Assembly (NCBI GenBank): GCA_016125455.1
Contig: WGLS01000012.1
Coordinates: 186,001 to 250,000, forward strand
Reading direction: 5' to 3'
DNA length: 64,000 nt
Source of the DNA: Alphaproteobacteria bacterium
GTDB taxonomy: Bacteria; Pseudomonadota; Alphaproteobacteria; Caulobacterales; Parvularculaceae
Shown here in pieces: positions 47,514-55,627 of the stretch. Positions within the stretch are counted from its first letter, which is position 1, and each line of letters opens with the position of its first letter. The notes beneath the pieces are model-generated. The model was not told the origin of the DNA. It did no database searches and was given only the letters and a program-made list of their open reading frames with translations. A program made the position numbers and the translations under genes.

Positions 47514-48509
47514 ATGGCTGCTTCACTGCGAGTGATTGATGGAGGGCTCAACGACGCCCCCGACAGGCGCGTCAAGGTGTGCGTGTCGGAACGCATTGAA
47601 CAGGCTGAATCGGTCGCGAAACTCTTAAGCGCGCTCGCGCCGGAACTCACTGCCAACGTTGAGCAACGTCATAATGCTTCACCAGGCGATGCTCAAACTG
47701 CTCGCCTTTCGGACCTGCGATTCTCGCTCTTCAGCGATTGTCAAAGTGATCCGATTCTTTGGACCTCGAAGCTCGGCGCTCTGCGCGGAACATTTCGCAC
47801 GCTCGTCGACAAACTGGACGTTGAGCTGATTGCGATCTGTTCAGATCGCGTCGAAACGCTCGCCCAGGCTCTAGATCTTGCCAAAGCGGCTGGACGTTCA
47901 TCGCCATGCATTATTGAAAATTCCGGTGAGATTGCCTTCGCGCCGAGCGTAGGCAACGCCGTCCACGAAATATTCGGAGCCGACGCTGGTCTAGCTCAAA
48001 TGGGCTGCCTGGACGCGATTGCCCAGTTCGTTTGCGGCCGCTTTCCTCATGACGTTGTCATTGCGCGCGCCGAGACCGCCATTCTGCTTGAAACGCTTGG
48101 CGCTGAACTGATCGGGGCGACGCCATTGCGCGCGCGATGCTGGCGGTATGCGGAAGGGATTTCCAGCGCCGGAATTGCGAGTCAGTCCGATCGAGACGTG
48201 GAAGCGTTCTCAATCGCCGCTGACATCACGGCGTTAGCCGACCTCCTCGGCGCCGCCGGCTGGCGTCAGGCCTCCATGTCGTTGAGCAACGCCCTGATCA
48301 GAACTCTGGAAGACAATTTTCATACTGACGGTATACCGACCATCATGCCTTATGCGCGCCGGGTCAATGATGTCGAATTCATCGACGCTGTCACGCAAAG
48401 GCTTGGCAAACTTCCGAAACATGCCAAGCCCCTGGTCTACGCCCCAGATCACAGCCATCGCCAGGCCATGGGCGCACGATCATCCTTGCAACTTGTCCAC
48501 TCCGCCTGA
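47514..48509 (+). CDS. hypothetical protein next to the tRNA
   Basis: The 331-aa soluble-looking product has mixed alpha/beta composition and eight cysteines spread without a motif. I do not recognise a family. The upstream 200 bases are very AT-rich and presumably hold its promoter. Codon use is less GC-biased than in genes left of the tRNA, consistent with transfer. It converges on the arsR gene, with 11 bases between the stop codons. Whether it belongs to the dab operon's function is unknown. Confidence 0.6.
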   Translation: MAASLRVIDGGLNDAPDRRVKVCVSERIEQAESVAKLLSALAPELTANVEQRHNASPGDAQTARLSDLRFSLFSDCQSDPILWTSKLGALRGTFRTLVDKLDVELIAICSDRVETLAQALDLAKAAGRSSPCIIENSGEIAFAPSVGNAVHEIFGADAGLAQMGCLDAIAQFVCGRFPHDVVIARAETAILLETLGAELIGATPLRARCWRYAEGISSAGIASQSDRDVEAFSIAADITALADLLGAAGWRQASMSLSNALIRTLEDNFHTDGIPTIMPYARRVNDVEFIDAVTQRLGKLPKHAKPLVYAPDHSHRQAMGARSSLQLVHSA

Positions 48510-48520
48510 GCGATCAAGAA

Positions 48521-48877
48521 TCAGCAAAACGCCTCTCTCCAAAGCCGCTTGGCGTCTTCGCCCTGTTCTCGGGACACCTCTTCATAGCGGTCGATTACGA
48601 AATCGACGCCGTCGACCAGCCAGGGCGCAATCCCCGGAATCGTCAAATCGTAAATCCGGTGACGTCCATCGCTGCGTTCTTCGACGAGCCTGTATGCCCG
48701 AAGGGTCGACAGATGTTGCGAAATAAGCGTTGCCGGCAGATCTAGAGCGTCGGCAATGCTTGCAACGCTATGTTCGCCAGCCGCAGCCAGCAGTTGAATA
48801 ATCTGAATGCGGTCCGGGTGGGATACGACCCGCATCAGCTCTCCCAGGTGTTTTGCAACAAGACGACGATTGGGCAT
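48521..48877 (-). CDS. ArsR-family transcriptional regulator
   Basis: The 118-aa product is a single winged-helix domain: HLGELMRVVSHPDRIQIIQLL, SVASIADALDLPATLISQHLSTLR (recognition helix) and YDLTIPGIAPWLVDGVDFVIDR. The only cysteine is the last residue, so the metal or persulfide sites known from many ArsR proteins are absent; the ligand is unknown. It is last in the dabB-dabA-cysD-DUF6671 operon, 22 bases after the preceding stop, and probably feeds back on it. The start MPNRRLV is chosen over a long unconserved extension. Confidence 0.85.
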   Translation of the reverse strand: MPNRRLVAKHLGELMRVVSHPDRIQIIQLLAAAGEHSVASIADALDLPATLISQHLSTLRAYRLVEERSDGRHRIYDLTIPGIAPWLVDGVDFVIDRYEEVSREQGEDAKRLWREAFC

Positions 48878-48899: not shown

Positions 48900-49766
48900 T
48901 CAGGGATTACAGGAGAGGCAATACGTCGGCGAGGACCGCTCAAGGCCATCCGGCCGTGGTCTTTCTTCTCGATGCGCGCAGCGCGTGCAGCCATAGACCA
49001 GCGCCCTGATGAGCGTGCTTTCGTGTCCGCAGTCTTCGCAGGGCAGGCCGGCGATCTTGTCAACCGCGCCGAAACCGGGCGCATCGCAGGTCGGGCATGA
49101 CTGAGCGAGACGCTTGGCGAGCTTTTCGGCAAGCCTGCCAATCTCACCCATACGCGTCGGATTGAAAAACGCGCGCATATCGGTTTCGATCCGCGCACAC
49201 TCATCGCTCGACTGTGCTGAGAATTCCCTGAGAGCGGCCTTGAGGGTTTCCGGGTCGGTTACGCCTTTGATGACGCCGGGGTCGTGGCCGGCAGCCGGAG
49301 CGTTGGCGCGCACGATCACCCCGTGATCCGGAAATCCCGCCTTCTTCAGAAACTCGTTTGGTTCCTCGTTGGCCTTGAGCGCAATATGAGAGAAATTTGT
49401 CCCCTCAACGATAAGGCTTTCGCTGACGACGATGCCAAGGACGTCATCGACATAGGTCATCACTTCCGATCCGCCCGGAATGAAATGATAGATCGGGTGG
49501 GCCCCGTAACTCCCTTCGCTGGCGATTCCGGCCTCGGCGCCCGCAAGACGCATGCCCTCTCGCGCTTTCAGGACCGCCGTCTCGAGGACGCTGCCACGTC
49601 GTTCTATCTCGCCGCTGAACATCCCAAAGGCGTCGGTGTTAATTCCGGTCGCCTGAACCGGGATCATGCCGAGCGCTTGCTCAAACGCCGGCGCGATCGC
49701 CTGCTCCTTCCCATGCATGGTCGCGATAGCAACGCGGCGGCCAGCAAGAAAAGACGGCGTTTCCAT
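48900..49766 (-). CDS. DUF6671-like protein with C-terminal zinc-ribbon cysteines
   Basis: The 288-aa product starts RRVAIATMHGKEQAIAPAF, then GINTDAFGMFSGE, IASEGSYGAHP and EGTNFSHIALKANE, a pattern I associate with DUF6671 (recalled, not searched). The last 65 residues hold four CxxC pairs (224/227, 243/246, 260/263, 283/286), enough for two zinc ribbons. No membrane segment is present. Its start codon overlaps the cysD stop by one base (TGATG), so translation is coupled. Function is unknown; its place after DabAB and CysD suggests a role with them. Confidence 0.75.
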   Translation of the reverse strand: METPSFLAGRRVAIATMHGKEQAIAPAFEQALGMIPVQATGINTDAFGMFSGEIERRGSVLETAVLKAREGMRLAGAEAGIASEGSYGAHPIYHFIPGGSEVMTYVDDVLGIVVSESLIVEGTNFSHIALKANEEPNEFLKKAGFPDHGVIVRANAPAAGHDPGVIKGVTDPETLKAALREFSAQSSDECARIETDMRAFFNPTRMGEIGRLAEKLAKRLAQSCPTCDAPGFGAVDKIAGLPCEDCGHESTLIRALVYGCTRCAHREERPRPDGLERSSPTYCLSCNP

Positions 49767-50659
49767 CAGAAGTAGCCGCTGCGCTTCTGCGCCTCCAGGG
49801 AGCCGTCGTCACTAACGCGCCCGCGCCGTTCGGAGATAGACGCCGTCAGATTTTCCGCGATGACCTTGGCCGTCGTCGCCGCATCAGATTCAATCGCGCC
49901 AGTCACCGGCCAGCATCCGAGCGTCCGAAACCGGACCATTCGCTTGACCGGATGCTCGCCTTCGCACCAGCGCATCCGCGCAGGATCATCGACGACAATA
50001 AGCGCGCCATCGCGATCAACGACCAAGCGCTCAGCCGCATAATAGAGCGGGACGAGCGGCAGATCGCGGGCGGCGATATAGGCCCAGATGTCGGCTTCGG
50101 TCCAGTTTGACAATGGATATGCGCGTATCGTCTCGCCCTTGTCAGTTCGCCAGTTATAGATCGACCAAAGCTCCGGACGCTGACGGCGTGGGTCCCAGAC
50201 ATGGCCGGGCGCGCGCACTGACGCGACGCGTTCTTTCGCCCGACTCGCCTCTTCGTCCCGTCGGGCGCCGCCAAAGATGACGTCATAGCCGCCAGCATCG
50301 AGCGCCTTCTTTAGGGCGTCAGTGCGCATCATGCTCGTATAGACGTCGCCGTGTTCGAAGGGATTGAGGCCCATTGCGCGGCCTTCTTCATTGGCGTGCA
50401 CGTGGAGTTCGAACCCATGACGCGCGGCGAAGGCATCGCGGAAGCCGAGAAGCTCCGCGAACTCCCAGGTCGAATCGACATGCAGGAGCGGCAGCGGCGG
50501 CCGCGAAGGATAGAAAGCCCGGAGCGCGACGTGCGCAAGCACGGTCGAGTCTTTCCCGGCTGAAAACAAAAGGACCGGGTTGCGCGCTTCGGCGACGCCG
50601 TCGCGCAGAATGTGGATCGCCTCGCTTTCAAGCGCCGAGAGATGCGGGCTGAGGTTCAT
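49766..50659 (-). CDS. cysD: CysD-like sulfate adenylyltransferase small subunit (orphan)
   Basis: The 297-aa product matches CysD end to end: PP-loop SAGKDS (33-38), PLPLLHVDSTWEF, MGLNPFEHGD, FGGARRDEEASRAKERV, RQRPELWSIYNWR, YPLSNWTEADIWAYI, RFRTLGCWPVTGAIESDA and the terminal SGYF. CysD forms adenylyl-sulfate from ATP and sulfate, normally as a heterodimer with the GTPase CysN. No cysN or other sulfate-assimilation gene is in the window. The start MNLSPHL overlaps the dabA stop by 4 bases; the longer open frame upstream lies inside dabA and is not real. Confidence 0.92.
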   Translation of the reverse strand: MNLSPHLSALESEAIHILRDGVAEARNPVLLFSAGKDSTVLAHVALRAFYPSRPPLPLLHVDSTWEFAELLGFRDAFAARHGFELHVHANEEGRAMGLNPFEHGDVYTSMMRTDALKKALDAGGYDVIFGGARRDEEASRAKERVASVRAPGHVWDPRRQRPELWSIYNWRTDKGETIRAYPLSNWTEADIWAYIAARDLPLVPLYYAAERLVVDRDGALIVVDDPARMRWCEGEHPVKRMVRFRTLGCWPVTGAIESDAATTAKVIAENLTASISERRGRVSDDGSLEAQKRSGYF

Positions 50660-53103
50660 GCGGCAGGCTGCAATTCGCGCGCAGCGTGAGACGGTATATC
50701 CATCCATCGGCCGTCGCGGGTAAGGCGCTTGAAACTGCGGCCGTCGTCGTCCATGGCGATGAGATGCAGCCAGCCGTTGGCGAAGAGCGCGCGGACATTG
50801 GCGTGTTTTTCGAGAACCGCGTCGATCCGCTCGGTCGGCGCAGCGATCAATGCCGTGAGCCGCAGGGGGTCGTGGAACAGGCGAGCGCCGGTATGGACCG
50901 ATTGAAGCGGCAGTCCCGACCGGAGGTCGCCGCCGCACCCCTCGAGAACGCCAAGACCGCCGACGACATTGTGCAGCGCCTTGTCGCCGCTGCCGAAGCG
51001 CGCGTTGTCTATGGAAGATCCATAATATTGAAGGCTGATCCAGCTCGCGACAACGAGCGGCGCCGTCATGATCAGTTCCAAGATCGAATTTTCCTGGTCG
51101 GCCTTCCAGTCATAGGAATGCAGGAAGGTCCGACCTTGAAGATCGAGGCCTTTGGTCAGGGCGCGCGGTGCGGCGATAAAGGCCGCGCAGCCGGCAAGGC
51201 CCCACTCGGGGCGCACTTCCGCCCAATCACGGCTCTTCGCCAGAACTTTTCGATCAAGGCCCGGGCCTTCCTCAAGCCCGAGCGACGCGGCGCGATCGCG
51301 CCGGGAAAGCCGGCTGGCATCAATGAAATCCCGTTTCAAATGGGCGAGGTCCTGCGCGTGGCTATCGGGGATGCGCGATTCGTCAAAGATTTTGATCTCG
51401 TCAGTCGTCGTATCATGAAGCGCGGCGATGAAGATCGTATCGTCGGGGATTGGGAGGCCGGATTCCTTGAGCGCCTTGCGCACCGCCGCATCGTTCAGGA
51501 TCTCGGCGGCGACGCGCGCGTTTGCCTCGCCCGTGTGTCCGCCACAGGCCCCGCAATCAAGGCCTGCCGCATAAGGATTGTTCGTCGTCGTCGAACCATG
51601 GCCAACCAGCGCGACGAGCCGGGCGAAACCGTCGGTTAGCGATATGCCGGCGAGCGCGCCCTTGGCGAGCGCAATCCGGTCGTCGAGCGGAATGCCGGTC
51701 TTTTGGCCGCCGCACGAGCCGGCTGAAGAGTCGATCGCGCCGAGCGGATTTTCTTCAGGGGCGGGCCGTCCCATGAGGTCCCGCAAGAGAGCGCCGGCGA
51801 AGGCCGCGCCCCAGCTTTCGACGAAGGCGAAGGAGGAAACAGCGCCGGTCTTGAAGCGCTTCCACGCGCCCGCAAAGGTCTGGGCGCTCCACGCGGTTTG
51901 ATCGCGAGGAGCCTCGCGCACGGTGTGGGTTGGCTCCAGAAGGACAGGGCACTGATCATGCGTATCGACGACGCGGGAGAGCGCGATCGGCACGCCGAAA
52001 AAGCCGGCGAAGCCGAAGGTTTCGATGTCGCCATTGATGCTTTCCAACGCGCGGCGGATGCGTTCGGAGCGAACGTCGATGCAGAACACCGCCTGCGCCG
52101 CTGGCCGGTCCGGTCGGGCGCTCGGCAGGTTGCTTGCAATACCCTCGATCAAGCGTTCCTGATATGCGAGCTCCCTTGCGCATTGAGCGATAATCCGGGG
52201 TTGAACATCTGCAGCGGGAGCATGATCGCGCAACAGAACATCCCGCCAGCTTTGAACTGAGAGTTTTGGTTTCAGGCTTTCATGGATGGCGTAGTCGAAG
52301 GCCGCCCGGATCGCCAGAATGTCGATGACGCCGCTCGGCCCTTCGCCTTTCAGTTCACCGCGCCAACCCTGATAGCGGCGATAGCCCGCCCAGCCGGCAA
52401 GCGTCGACAATAGCCGCGCAAAATAGGCTGGGCGCGCTTCAGCCGGCAGGCCGAGATCGGCAACGATCCGGCGCATTGCTTCAATTGCATCCTCAGGCAG
52501 GCTCGCAATAACGCCGCGAAAACCTTTGAGCCCCATGATTTCCGGCGTGCGGTCAAAGCTCGCCTGTTTGCGCCAGGCAGCGAAAGGCGCCTGATCCCGC
52601 CACGGACTTTTCCAGGCGCTCTGCCCTTCATCGAAATACCCAGACGCCCAGAAGGAGATTTGTTCGACGGCGAATCGCGGCCAGTCCTCGCCGGTTGCGA
52701 CCTCTGCATGATCAGCAAGCGTTTGAACTTCCAAAGTATCCTCGCCCGCCGCGCCGGTAAGCGCCGTCGTCACCTCATTGACGCTTAGCGCCTCCTGCGC
52801 TCCGGCAAGCTCAATCGCCTCAGCGAGGTGTCGCTCGTCAAACGCGCCCTTGCCAAGCGCATCCGCATAGTCCTGGCGATCGAGAAGAAGCCGCGCATTG
52901 AGATTGTTTGCGAGGCTTTCAACGGCTGTTTCAAAGGCCTCGTCTGCCTGTCCAAGCATTGGATTGACCGCGACAAAGCTCTTCAGCGGCCAAAGAGGGG
53001 CGATCTGGTGGCAGGCGTTAAGCGCCTCCATCATCAGATCGGCTTCAAGGGCGCTGACGTGCATGTCTTTCGTCCGAGGCTTAAGTGCGGCGATGGCGGT
53101 CAT
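50656..53103 (-). CDS. dabA: DabA, inorganic-carbon-accumulating carbonic-anhydrase-like subunit (DUF2309)
   Basis: The 815-aa product is a DUF2309 protein. The active-site zinc residues established for Halothiobacillus DabA are all present: C341 and D343 in FCIDVRSE, H502 in VGHGST, and C517 in GLDCGACGG, with the same 15-residue spacing of the last two. DabA hydrates CO2 to bicarbonate in an energy-coupled complex with DabB. The N-terminal WPLKSFVAVNPMLG segment is conserved. Start and stop each overlap a neighbour by 4 bases. No RuBisCO is in this window, so the DIC may serve anaplerosis or pH balance. Confidence 0.94.
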   Translation of the reverse strand: MTAIAALKPRTKDMHVSALEADLMMEALNACHQIAPLWPLKSFVAVNPMLGQADEAFETAVESLANNLNARLLLDRQDYADALGKGAFDERHLAEAIELAGAQEALSVNEVTTALTGAAGEDTLEVQTLADHAEVATGEDWPRFAVEQISFWASGYFDEGQSAWKSPWRDQAPFAAWRKQASFDRTPEIMGLKGFRGVIASLPEDAIEAMRRIVADLGLPAEARPAYFARLLSTLAGWAGYRRYQGWRGELKGEGPSGVIDILAIRAAFDYAIHESLKPKLSVQSWRDVLLRDHAPAADVQPRIIAQCARELAYQERLIEGIASNLPSARPDRPAAQAVFCIDVRSERIRRALESINGDIETFGFAGFFGVPIALSRVVDTHDQCPVLLEPTHTVREAPRDQTAWSAQTFAGAWKRFKTGAVSSFAFVESWGAAFAGALLRDLMGRPAPEENPLGAIDSSAGSCGGQKTGIPLDDRIALAKGALAGISLTDGFARLVALVGHGSTTTNNPYAAGLDCGACGGHTGEANARVAAEILNDAAVRKALKESGLPIPDDTIFIAALHDTTTDEIKIFDESRIPDSHAQDLAHLKRDFIDASRLSRRDRAASLGLEEGPGLDRKVLAKSRDWAEVRPEWGLAGCAAFIAAPRALTKGLDLQGRTFLHSYDWKADQENSILELIMTAPLVVASWISLQYYGSSIDNARFGSGDKALHNVVGGLGVLEGCGGDLRSGLPLQSVHTGARLFHDPLRLTALIAAPTERIDAVLEKHANVRALFANGWLHLIAMDDDGRSFKRLTRDGRWMDIPSHAARELQPAA

Positions 53104-54638
53104 GAGGCGCTCCTTGAGACGTAAACATCCCGGCCGACACGCAAGGCGCCGATCAGGCGATTAAAGATGGCGTTGGCGTAAAAACCCTGGGCCGCATGGA
53201 CATAGAAGGCGCGAACCTTGTCCGTGGCAGGAAGATGAAAGACTTGCGCGAACGCGACGACGGCGAATGAGCCGAGCGCGATGACGATAACAGCGTTCCC
53301 AACCGCATCAGGCGCGAGCGGCGCAGGGATAGCGCCGGCAAGAAGCGTGGCGAACGCGTTTTGCAGAAGGAAGTAGAAGGCGGTGGCGAACCCTGCGAGA
53401 CCGAGTCCGAGCGCGCGTGAATTTGTATCGGCAAGCAGCGCCGAGAGATACATCGACAGACCGATGATATAGATTGCGCCAAGGGCCAGGATCGCCGGCT
53501 CTTCACCGGCTCGACCGCCAAATGGCACACCGATAGCCAAATAAAGCGCAAGCGCTGAGAGGACCGCGAAGACGGCGTCTCGCTTTTTTTGCGTCATGGC
53601 GGGGCGGGAAATCCGCGACAGGGTGACCGCGCGGCCCGAGGACAGGAAGGCGTGCGCCTTGTAAAGCGAGTGCGCAATGATGTGCAGGGTCGCCGCCGAA
53701 AAGACGCCGAGCCCGCACTGCAGAAGCATGAAGCCCATTTGCGCGACGGTCGAATAGGCGAGCGAGACCTTGATGCTGGTCTGGGTCAGCATGACGATCG
53801 ACCCGAAGAGCGCGGTGAACCCGCCGATGAGCGCAAGCGCATGCATCGCCGAACCGTTCAAAAGCATGACGTCGGCAAACCGGATTATCAGGAAACCGCC
53901 AGCGTTAATGATGCCTGCATGCAGGAGCGCGGAGACCGGCGTCGGCGTCTCCATGACCTCGCCGAGCCAGCCATGAGTCGGGAACTGACCGGATTTGAGG
54001 ACGGCCGCGATCACCAGAAAGACGGGCGCAAGGGCGAGCAAGCCAGGCGCGCCGCCGGTTGCTTTCATGTTCTGGGCGCCTTCCAGGATCGCGGCAATCT
54101 CAGCCGTCCCGAATGCGTTCATCATCATGTAGACGGCGCCGAGCAGGGCTGCGTCGCCAATGCGCGCCACGATGAATTTTTTCCGGGCGGCGATGATGGC
54201 GCGCGGCCGCTCGCTTCGAAAAACGAGGAGCTTATGCAGCGCGAGGCTCGTAGCGATCCAGGCGAGCGCGAAAAGCCGAAGATCGCCGGCAATCACGAGC
54301 GCCGAAACCGCTGCGAGCGTTAGACACAGCCAGGACATAAAGCGTGGCTGATCCGGATCGCCGTCGAGATAGGTAATTGAATACCGGACGACGACGAAGC
54401 CGACAAAGGTGATCAGCGTGAGGATGGCCGCGCTGAAGGCGTCAAGAAAAACAGGCGACCCGGCTTCAGTGCCCTTGGCAAGCGCAAGGAGAATATCGCA
54501 AAGGACGGCAGCGGCGAAGGCGCCGGCGGCAAGAAAGAGCCCAACGCGGAAAAAGTGTTGCTTCCGAAAAGCAAATGCCGCCGTTAAATACACTAAGGGG
54601 GCGCACAACCCTGCAAAGCCAACTATCGAAATCATCAT
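53100..54638 (-). CDS. dabB: DabB, NuoL/Mrp-like ion-conducting membrane subunit
   Basis: The 512-aa product has about 13-14 membrane helices and the Proton_antipo_M pattern: TFVGFVVVRYSITYLDGD, then FPTHGWLGEVMETPTPVSALLHAGIINAGGFLIIRF (about 228-262) and SLAYSTVAQMGFMLLQCGLG. It is a NuoL-family protein but stands next to dabA rather than in a nuo or mrp cluster, which identifies it as DabB. It should supply proton or sodium motive force to DabA. The start is the ATG following GAGGAG; a TTG 6 codons earlier overlaps that site and is unlikely. Confidence 0.92.
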   Translation of the reverse strand: MMISIVGFAGLCAPLVYLTAAFAFRKQHFFRVGLFLAAGAFAAAVLCDILLALAKGTEAGSPVFLDAFSAAILTLITFVGFVVVRYSITYLDGDPDQPRFMSWLCLTLAAVSALVIAGDLRLFALAWIATSLALHKLLVFRSERPRAIIAARKKFIVARIGDAALLGAVYMMMNAFGTAEIAAILEGAQNMKATGGAPGLLALAPVFLVIAAVLKSGQFPTHGWLGEVMETPTPVSALLHAGIINAGGFLIIRFADVMLLNGSAMHALALIGGFTALFGSIVMLTQTSIKVSLAYSTVAQMGFMLLQCGLGVFSAATLHIIAHSLYKAHAFLSSGRAVTLSRISRPAMTQKKRDAVFAVLSALALYLAIGVPFGGRAGEEPAILALGAIYIIGLSMYLSALLADTNSRALGLGLAGFATAFYFLLQNAFATLLAGAIPAPLAPDAVGNAVIVIALGSFAVVAFAQVFHLPATDKVRAFYVHAAQGFYANAIFNRLIGALRVGRDVYVSRSAS

Positions 54639-54667
54639 TGTGCGGAGTCTCCTCAAAATTTGCCTGA

Positions 54668-54736
54668 GGATATATTTCCGCTATCCATAAATGAAATATA
54701 ATGTTACGATTAGATCGTTCTAAAATAGCGAACGAT
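54668..54736. promoter_or_regulatory. two LysR-type dyads between dabB and the LysR gene
   Basis: GGATA-N9-TATCC (54668-54686) and ATCGTTC-N9-GAACGAT (54714-54736) are both interrupted inverted repeats with a T-N11-A core, the classical LysR-type box. Their centres are 48 bases apart. The second ends 3 bases before the LysR start codon, suggesting autoregulation; the first lies in the dabB leader. The region is AT-rich and should contain both divergent promoters. Confidence 0.65.
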
Positions 54737-54739
54737 AAA

Positions 54740-55627
54740 ATGGGCCATCTGAACTACAATCACTTGCGGTATTTCTGGGCCGTCGCCCACGACGGCAACC
54801 TCACGCGCACGGCCGAAAAACTGAACGTCTCCCAGTCGGCGCTGTCGCTTCAGATCAAGAAACTGGAGGATCGGCTCGGGCAGCAGCTCTTCGAGCGACG
54901 GGGCAAACAGCTCGTCTTGACGGAAGCCGGATCGATCGTGCTCGGCCATGCCGACGTGATATTCGCGGCCGGCGAAGAGCTACTCGACACCATTCTTGAG
55001 AGGGACACAGACCGCGAGGTCCTTCTTCGGGTCGGCGCACTCTCAACCCTGTCCCGGAACTTCCAGATCGAGTTCCTCAACCCCTTGTTCAGCGAAGAAA
55101 AAGTCCGGTTGACGATTCGGTCAGGGAGCTTGACGGAACTCACCGCACTCCTTCAGGCGCAAAAAATCGACGTGGTCTTGACCAACCAGTCGCCAGTGCG
55201 CGGCAGCGACACGCCTTGGCTGATCCATCCGATCGCCGAACAAAAGGTGAGTCTCGTAGGGTTCCCAAAGCGCGTGAAGAAACGCCGGCCCTTGAAGCAA
55301 CTCCTTGAGAGCGAACTCCTGATCTTGCCCTCGAAAGAAAGCAGCATCCGGCTTGGCTTCGACGCCCTGATTGATCAGCTCGAGGTTCGTCCAAGGATAT
55401 TCGCTGAAGTCGACGATATGGCGCTCTTGCGGGTTCTCGCGCGGGAGGACATCGGCCTTGCCGTCGTACCGCCGATCGTCGTCAAGGATGAGCTGTCGAG
55501 CGGAAAGCTCGTCGAAATCGAGCAGTTGCCGAAAATCTCAGAGACATTTTACGCGTTGACGATGCCGCGGCGGTTTCCAAATTCAGCTCTTCGGATGGTG
55601 CTTGATGCGTCGTCCGGGCTTAAATGA
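54740..55627 (+). CDS. LysR-family regulator, NhaR-like
   Basis: The 295-aa product begins GHLNYNHLRYFWAVAHDGN with the HTH LTRTAEKLNVSQSALSLQIKKLE, then a type-2 periplasmic-binding-like effector domain (about 95-290). The opening LNYNHLRYFW is characteristic of NhaR, the Na+/H+-responsive activator, rather than of CbbR. It is divergent from dabB and likely controls it in response to ion, pH or carbon status. The ATG at 54740 is preferred over 54701, because the LNYNHL start is the family N-terminus and a palindrome occupies the intervening DNA. Confidence 0.88.
   Translation: MGHLNYNHLRYFWAVAHDGNLTRTAEKLNVSQSALSLQIKKLEDRLGQQLFERRGKQLVLTEAGSIVLGHADVIFAAGEELLDTILERDTDREVLLRVGALSTLSRNFQIEFLNPLFSEEKVRLTIRSGSLTELTALLQAQKIDVVLTNQSPVRGSDTPWLIHPIAEQKVSLVGFPKRVKKRRPLKQLLESELLILPSKESSIRLGFDALIDQLEVRPRIFAEVDDMALLRVLAREDIGLAVVPPIVVKDELSSGKLVEIEQLPKISETFYALTMPRRFPNSALRMVLDASSGLK

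Follow-up and report, generated by a model that had tools for sequence, protein, structure and literature searches.

The window, by which we mean the whole stretch of 64,000 nucleotides that was analysed, carries an operon with the gene order dabB-dabA-cysD*-DUF6671, in which every junction between genes is an overlap of stop and start codons (ATGA, ATGA and TGATG). We write cysD* for the third gene and for the relatives that fall into one clade with it, and ordinary CysD for the subunit of the CysDN ATP sulfurylase. In dabA (PF10070) and dabB (PF00361), which are adjacent and overlap, we recognize a DAB operon. The locus shares these two genes and a divergent LysR gene with the DAB / MpsAB operons, and differs from them by the additional cysD* and DUF6671 genes (Table 1).

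Table 1. Genes of the dab-cysD* operon and of its flanks, with their positions in the window.
Gene	Position	Strand	Assignment and evidence
Uncharacterised gene, convergent to the operon	47514..48509	+	Distant homologues beside three other dab-cysD* operons
Small ArsR-type regulator, immediately 3′ of DUF6671	48521..48877	-	NF033788, 66.7 bits (longer ORF); start inferred
DUF6671 protein	48900..49766	-	PF20376, 167.5 bits; start overlaps cysD* stop (TGATG)
cysD*	49766..50659	-	N-type ATP pyrophosphatase, CysD-like, 297 aa; ORF, Pfam PF01507, NCBIfam, separate clade
dabA (DUF2309), inorganic-carbon uptake subunit	50656..53103	-	PF10070, 845.7 bits; stop overlaps cysD* start (ATGA)
dabB, proton-conducting membrane subunit	53100..54656	-	PF00361, E 1.7e-43; stop overlaps dabA start (ATGA); start codon uncertain
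LysR-type regulator, divergent	54701..55627	+	PF00126/PF03466

A LysR gene (above 150 bits) is found in 57 of the 80 best CysD* loci, a set described below, and its place is kept in most of the related loci. The ArsR-type gene is perhaps the last gene of the operon; since it has no match above 45 bits across the same 80 loci, we regard it as a local feature. The product of the convergent gene is 33-36% identical over 64-148 residues to proteins of loci L069, L110 and L144, and these homologues occupy the same place beside dab-cysD* in Parvularcula (L069) and in two Kordiimonas loci (L110, L144). Its C-terminal part weakly matches a C-terminal stretch of isocitrate dehydrogenase.

The cysD* reading frame is intact, from an ATG at 50659 to a stop at 49766-49768. 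A preliminary description of this DNA had reported all CysD motifs, including the PP-loop SAGKDS, and that is what we observe: the complete frame matches both Pfam PAPS_reduct (PF01507, E 1.2e-42) and the NCBIfam CysD family TIGR02039. The scores are just over the curated cut-offs (405.9 bits against 396.6 for TIGR02039, and 413.7 against 413 for NF009214), and when four dab-linked relatives were scanned, one was over the TIGR02039 cut-off and none over that of NF009214. In 48 host genomes, drawn from 49 of the 80 best loci, the TIGR02039 cut-off is reached by 39 of 49 CysD*, which score 369-437 bits versus 464-533 bits for the full-length ordinary CysD of the same genomes. CysD* scores straddle the TIGR02039 and NF009214 cut-offs, and as a result databases call some of these proteins "sulfate adenylyltransferase subunit CysD", with sulfate-assimilation GO terms.

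A predicted structure of CysD* (pLDDT 81.6) has as its best solved match 1zun_A, the CysD of the Pseudomonas syringae CysDN complex, to which it is 50% identical over 209 columns (347 bits by sequence). CysD* and the CysD of CysDN ATP sulfurylase have in common the fold, the length, the PP-loop SxGKDS, the motifs RRDEE..RAKER and SNWTE, and the GYF terminus. They differ in company: the ordinary gene almost always has cysN adjacent, whereas the window gene has no cysN beside it, its neighbors being DUF6671 (next) and dabA (previous), so the preliminary description was right on this point too.

Does the host have a complete sulfate-activating enzyme elsewhere? The preliminary description had proposed looking for other cysD and cysN genes, and the genome (3.6 Mb, 96% complete) has four PF01507 matches. 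Two of them (C11 and C27) are ordinary CysD, in each case with a cysN-apsK fusion behind the gene, and CysN-type C-terminal domains occur in the genome only there, each behind another cysD. These two CysD proteins share 74% identity, and with the window CysD* they share 59% and 58%. Since the genome has two complete cysD-cysNC pairs besides, the window cysD* is a third paralogue. The pairs themselves (G000:C11 and G000:C27; L007 and L006) amount to a redundancy in sulfate activation. The fourth match (C20) is a distant relative and presumably CysH. The host looks heterotrophic, because its genome has no match to the RuBisCO large subunit and one beta-carbonic anhydrase.

The locus set comes from a scan of genome contigs with two CysD*-type peptide patterns, which favour CysD*. 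The scan yielded 211 stretches with 167 relatives, and the best 80 loci were analysed; by their record titles they belong to Alpha- and Gammaproteobacteria. Of the 80 loci, 70 contain dabA. In 62 it is the direct 5′ neighbor of cysD* (no more than 160 bases from the matched ends); seven have it further 5′, and one has it in a different placement. DUF6671 lies directly 3′ of cysD* in 37 loci and elsewhere in 2, and 41 are without it; many loci end at contig ends, so that these presence counts are minima. As dozens of genomes show this arrangement, its occurrence in the window is not due to chance. An all-against-all clustering of neighboring ORFs was noisy due to antisense ORFs, and we used it as a lead only.

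The preliminary description had also stated that cysN almost always accompanies cysD, and our sample agrees: in 51 of 52 cases an ordinary cysD has a cysN no more than 1.5 kb away. In contrast, cysN (above 150 bits) occurs in 0 of the 80 best CysD* loci. Neither dabA nor DUF6671 is found near ordinary cysD in any of the 52 control loci (1.5 kb on each side); these control windows are smaller than the CysD* loci, which strengthens the contrast in cysN and weakens that in dabA.

As for a partner elsewhere in the genome, CysN is present above cut-off in 45 of the 48 host genomes searched, together with an ordinary CysD, which is whole in 43 and, in two (G443, G478), broken into pieces next to cysN. 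The remaining three (G463, G471 and G484) are MAGs with no CysN above cut-off. They look incomplete, because a full-length ordinary CysD was also not found in them and, in G471, a piece of CysD lies at the end of a contig, and they probably lack the partner for that reason. CysN is thus normally available in the hosts, and CysD* is an addition, not a remnant after loss.

Among 61 related genomes, dabA is present in eight. CysD* stands behind dabA in five of these (the host, G004, G022, G049 and G053), and dabA occurs without CysD* in the other three (G002, G046, G050), as does the second dabA of G004. CysD* is therefore not needed for DAB. Identity to the window CysD* is 64-73% for the CysD* of these relatives versus at most 60% for ordinary CysD. 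The CysD* of G004, a member of the same family as the host, is identical to that of the Parvularcula lutaonensis locus L069. In G053 (L025), dabA is reduced to a C-terminal fragment next to an ORF that by eye resembles a transposase, and cysD* and DUF6671 remain open, which suggests that they are useful without DAB. More widely, CysD* is rare: at E 1e-131 or better it was seen in 3 of 385 sampled genomes of the class, and by score in 2 of 299 of the phylum. A fourth match in the class sample, G315/L064 (445 bits by HMM), proved to be ordinary, with cysNC behind its cysD, and we count it among the ordinary CysD.

We aligned 84 CysD* with 61 ordinary CysD. Left out of the CysD* rows were G315/L064, L146 (with stop codons within cysD*), six exact duplicates, and the second copies of the window and G651 sequences. 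Three positions separate the CysD* without exception in their own set: 66 is Glu in 84/84 (ordinary CysD: Lys in 57 of 61, and Asn in four, which are distant and linked to cysN), 112 is Arg in 84/84 (ordinary: Lys 57, Gln 4), and 250 is Trp in 84/84 (ordinary: Tyr 55, Met 4, Trp 1, Ser 1). Three others are invariant in the 61 ordinary sequences and nearly so in CysD*: position 63 is Ser in 83 of 84 versus Thr, position 288 is Leu in 83 of 84 versus Met, and position 47 is Arg in 79 of 84 versus Lys. Further substitutions are L42A and L252V. All 84 CysD* also have a one-residue deletion after position 106, where about 10% of ordinary CysD have a gap, and a one-residue insertion at 227 that is absent from 98% of them. 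The catalytic residues K36, D37, R133, R134, D135, E136 and K142 do not vary in either set, such that the PP-loop and RRDEE..RAKER motifs are unchanged at the checked positions in 84/84 CysD*.

Two other candidate marks of the clade were dropped. A three-residue C-terminal deletion is present in only 22 of the 84 CysD*, the window's included (of the others, 61 are as long as ordinary CysD and one is truncated at the end of its contig), and the Lys of RRDEEK is present in only 46.

A family tree, the second check proposed in the preliminary description, puts the CysD* on one side of a single branch with SH-aLRT 100 and length 0.69, and not among the ordinary CysD. The tree includes all 61 ordinary CysD and 40 of the 84 CysD* (34 picked for their context and 6 at random), and was built by a quick method without bootstrap. 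With its root unplaced, CysD* is by sequence a sister or a derived clade within the same superfamily. The sbtA- and ccr-linked CysD* described next fall inside the CysD* clade, so that the signature in the sequence is kept without dab genes. The preliminary description had named two outcomes that would speak against a special CysD, a cysN with no second cysD in the genome and clustering with ordinary CysD; neither occurred. Its suggestion of a paralogue with a new role stands as far as the paralogue goes, given the cysDN pairs elsewhere and the separate clade, and a putative new role has the support of the genomic context and the conserved switches. Its other suggestion, that the enzyme acts alone, may also hold; in 45 of the 48 host genomes searched, though, a CysN and an ordinary CysD could provide a partner.

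What accompanies cysD* when dabA does not? The ten of the 80 best loci that are missing dabA are informative. In L096, cysD* is directly behind sbtA, which encodes a Na+-dependent bicarbonate transporter (PF05982, 404.8 bits), and a P-II-like gene (PF00543), a pair also known from SbtA loci; three Arthrobacter plasmids have sbtA beside DUF6671. We know of no Sbt system described with CysD. In the Methylocystis loci L137 and L142, and in G651 (outside the 80), cysD* is behind LysR and a crotonyl-CoA carboxylase/reductase gene, ccr (TIGR01751, 599 bits in L142), and the ccr-linked cysD* of L137, L142 and L192 have no pump in the stretch examined. In L068, L087, L104, L133, L138, L140 and L147, inspection by eye showed neither a carbon-uptake nor a carboxylase gene nearby; in L133 DUF6671 adjoins CysD*, and L138 has a DUF6671 match on the other strand. 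These seven loci without dab, sbtA or ccr tell against a strict rule of linkage to carbon uptake.

Other genes, too, are found in these islands. As an example, a Methylocystis rosea plasmid has the order dabB-dabA-bioD-ccrA-cysD*-bioA, and beyond these genes lie fhcA, an acyl-CoA carboxylase gene and DUF6671. Among the 80 best loci, TsaC occurs in 7 (between dabA and cysD* in L086, L115, L119 and L143), PyrC in 5 (directly after DUF6671 in L090, L100 and L101), Ccr in 6 (the match in L077 is partial and uncertain), FhcA in 4, PccB in 3 and BioD in 3. At least one of the six is present in 18 of the 80 and none in 62; the queries were picked after viewing the neighbors and close relatives were counted separately (five Methylocystis-type and three Dyella/Lysobacterales loci), so these counts are a description and not a test. 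The same queries match in 0 of 52 ordinary cysD loci, in smaller windows. As a rough background, 31 of 32 window ORFs outside the operon (some spurious) match no locus, and one matches one.

Dihydroorotase (PyrC), FwdA and the Mur ligases work with a carbamyl-lysine; for BioD, Ccr and PccB, CO2 or bicarbonate serves as a substrate. Enzymes of the IlvD/EDD family carry a carbamylated Lys (PMC5770437), and the human mitochondrial system for t6A formation shows a Km of 31 mM for CO2/bicarbonate (PMC5951830). The shared theme of the gene company in the CysD*/DUF6671 islands is dependence on CO2, and the island enzymes would presumably be second copies in their genomes. We also considered zinc limitation as the theme. 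PyrC and DabA are zinc enzymes; TsaC, IlvD, Ccr and BioD to our knowledge are not, and DUF6671 is itself Cys-rich, so we rejected this theme. A paper on bicarbonate depletion in S. aureus (PMC11394868) makes no mention of cysteine, sulfur, pyrimidine, ilv or carbamyl.

DUF6671 and CysD* are separate modules, because each occurs without the other. The AlphaFold model of DUF6671 (pLDDT 92.3) shows over residues ~1-222 an ITPase/HAM1/YjjX fold: Foldseek gives E 3.6e-4 to 1k7k, and structural comparison gives Z 13.0 to the HAM1 homologue 1vp2, Z 12.8 to RdgB 2q16_A (rmsd 2.7 over 125 residues), and Z 11-13 over the best dozen chains. DUF6671 is thus predicted to be an ITPase/HAM1-like fold with a Cys-rich C-terminus. 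Unlike the ITPase/HAM1/YjjX pyrophosphatases, whose fold is alike, it adds the Cys-rich part, has no HAM1 Pfam match, and has invariant motifs of its own, such as MH.K, ASEG and D.RA.

A tblastn search of plasmids with DUF6671 gave 15 places in 12 records, and we viewed the best place of each. These 12 stretches include dabA in eight, sbtA in three (Arthrobacter), and neither in one, the Pseudomonas hygromyciniae plasmid pSDM007 (L151:4014-12669). There, DUF6671 is surrounded by raiA, TerC, PyrC, IlvD-like, TsaC-like and MurF pieces, which make up a set of CO2-dependent enzymes with housekeeping roles; the plasmid is typed as conjugative. TsaC is also found in the island of a Nocardia plasmid, and IlvD in those of Fuscovulum and two Arthrobacter plasmids. 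TerC-family membrane proteins are near DUF6671 in 5 of 9 plasmid stretches (L149, L150, L151, L152, L153). In this analysis DUF6671 islands occur in two phyla, and CysD* in Proteobacteria only.

Our tentative reading, in which we place a little less than even confidence, is that CysD* is a carbon-limitation isoform of the sulfate-activating subunit, within a module for growth at low CO2/bicarbonate. The LysR-type regulator would probably switch on the divergent operon, with low CO2 as the presumed inducer. DabB/DabA, or SbtA in another lineage, would load the cell with bicarbonate, and in some islands extra copies of enzymes that need CO2 or bicarbonate would keep sensitive steps running. CysD* would take over or supplement ATP-dependent oxyanion activation where ordinary CysD works badly; that ordinary CysD is insufficient under low CO2, and for what reason, is a supposition of this reading. 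The reaction would most likely still be APS synthesis, with sulfate as the putative substrate and the CysN(C) of the housekeeping pairs as the probable, borrowed partner. Such chemistry appears to be the simplest reading because the catalytic set is intact. The tie between CysD* and CO2 limitation is one of guilt by association, drawn from gene neighborhoods, and the CysD* switches could equally mean a changed substrate or lost CysN binding.

A lost dependence on CysN, or a new acceptor, is in fact the main rival to the isoform reading. CysD* would then act independently of CysN and adenylate some other compound (for example a carbonate/carbamate species, RNA or a cofactor), which we think unlikely but well worth weighing. 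The complete absence of cysN from the 80 best loci favours it, as do the long stem with two one-residue indels, the 12 to 15 switched residues near the PP-loop and the segments DSTWEF, MRTDALK and GCWPVT, and the three MAGs that have CysD* and no CysN above cut-off. Against it, CysD* keeps the CysD catalytic motifs, its best solved relative is a CysD, and the three MAGs look incomplete.

Position 66 allows for a more specific proposal, which we regard as improbable. Ordinary CysD would itself depend on CO2, through a carbamylated Lys of HVDTxWKF, and CysD* with its Glu would be the CO2-independent version. The distribution of Glu and Lys at this position is as such a proposal would have it, and like islands carry the CO2-dependent IlvD and TsaC (PMC5770437, PMC5951830). 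It is at odds with the Asn of the four distant cysN-linked CysD, and with the Lys retained by the island IlvD (3/3 read) and PyrC (6/6 read). A general rule that island copies replace the carbamylated Lys was rejected on the same sequences: the IlvD keep CDK, and the PyrC keep Lys before YPA/YPQ. Among the papers listed by open-licence literature searches, none was relevant to CO2 dependence or carbamylation of CysD or ATP sulfurylase, and a review of carbamates (PMC8920986) makes no mention of "sulfurylase" or "dihydroorotase".

Alternatively, the cytosolic bicarbonate or carbonate raised by DAB could, being an oxyanion, compete in ordinary CysD, and CysD* would be a sulfate-selective isoform that tolerates it. 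The frequent link to pumps (dab, and sbtA in one locus) agrees with this, and the ccr-linked cysD* with no pump in the stretch disagree; we consider it quite improbable. It is very improbable that CysD* is an assembly or regulatory factor dedicated to DabA. The gene does stand directly 3′ of dabA in 62 of the 80 loci, with overlapping codons in the window; yet cysD* is also found with sbtA, with ccr and alone, G053 keeps cysD*-DUF6671 behind a dabA fragment, and several dabA do without it. That CysD* is an ordinary CysD which gene transfer left at this site, with no significance, is scarcely credible, for although family profiles still assign it to CysD, it is monophyletic, with clade-wide switches and a linkage conserved across Alpha- and Gammaproteobacteria (by record titles).

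We found no open-licence paper that joins cysD or sulfate adenylyltransferase with dabA, DUF2309 or bicarbonate transporters, and none that names DUF6671. Members of the CysD* clade are annotated as sulfate-assimilation genes, and most of them sit with inorganic carbon supply. If ordinary CysD did depend on a carbamylated Lys, bacterial sulfate activation would fail at low CO2 unless a carbon-uptake island supplied CysD*. Together, CysD* and DUF6671 mark what appears to be a portable low-CO2 module of bicarbonate pumps and CO2-dependent enzymes, found on chromosomes and plasmids. If that is true, DUF6671, a domain without an assigned function, would gain its first context, and the module would point to an unexpected tie between CO2 and sulfate activation.
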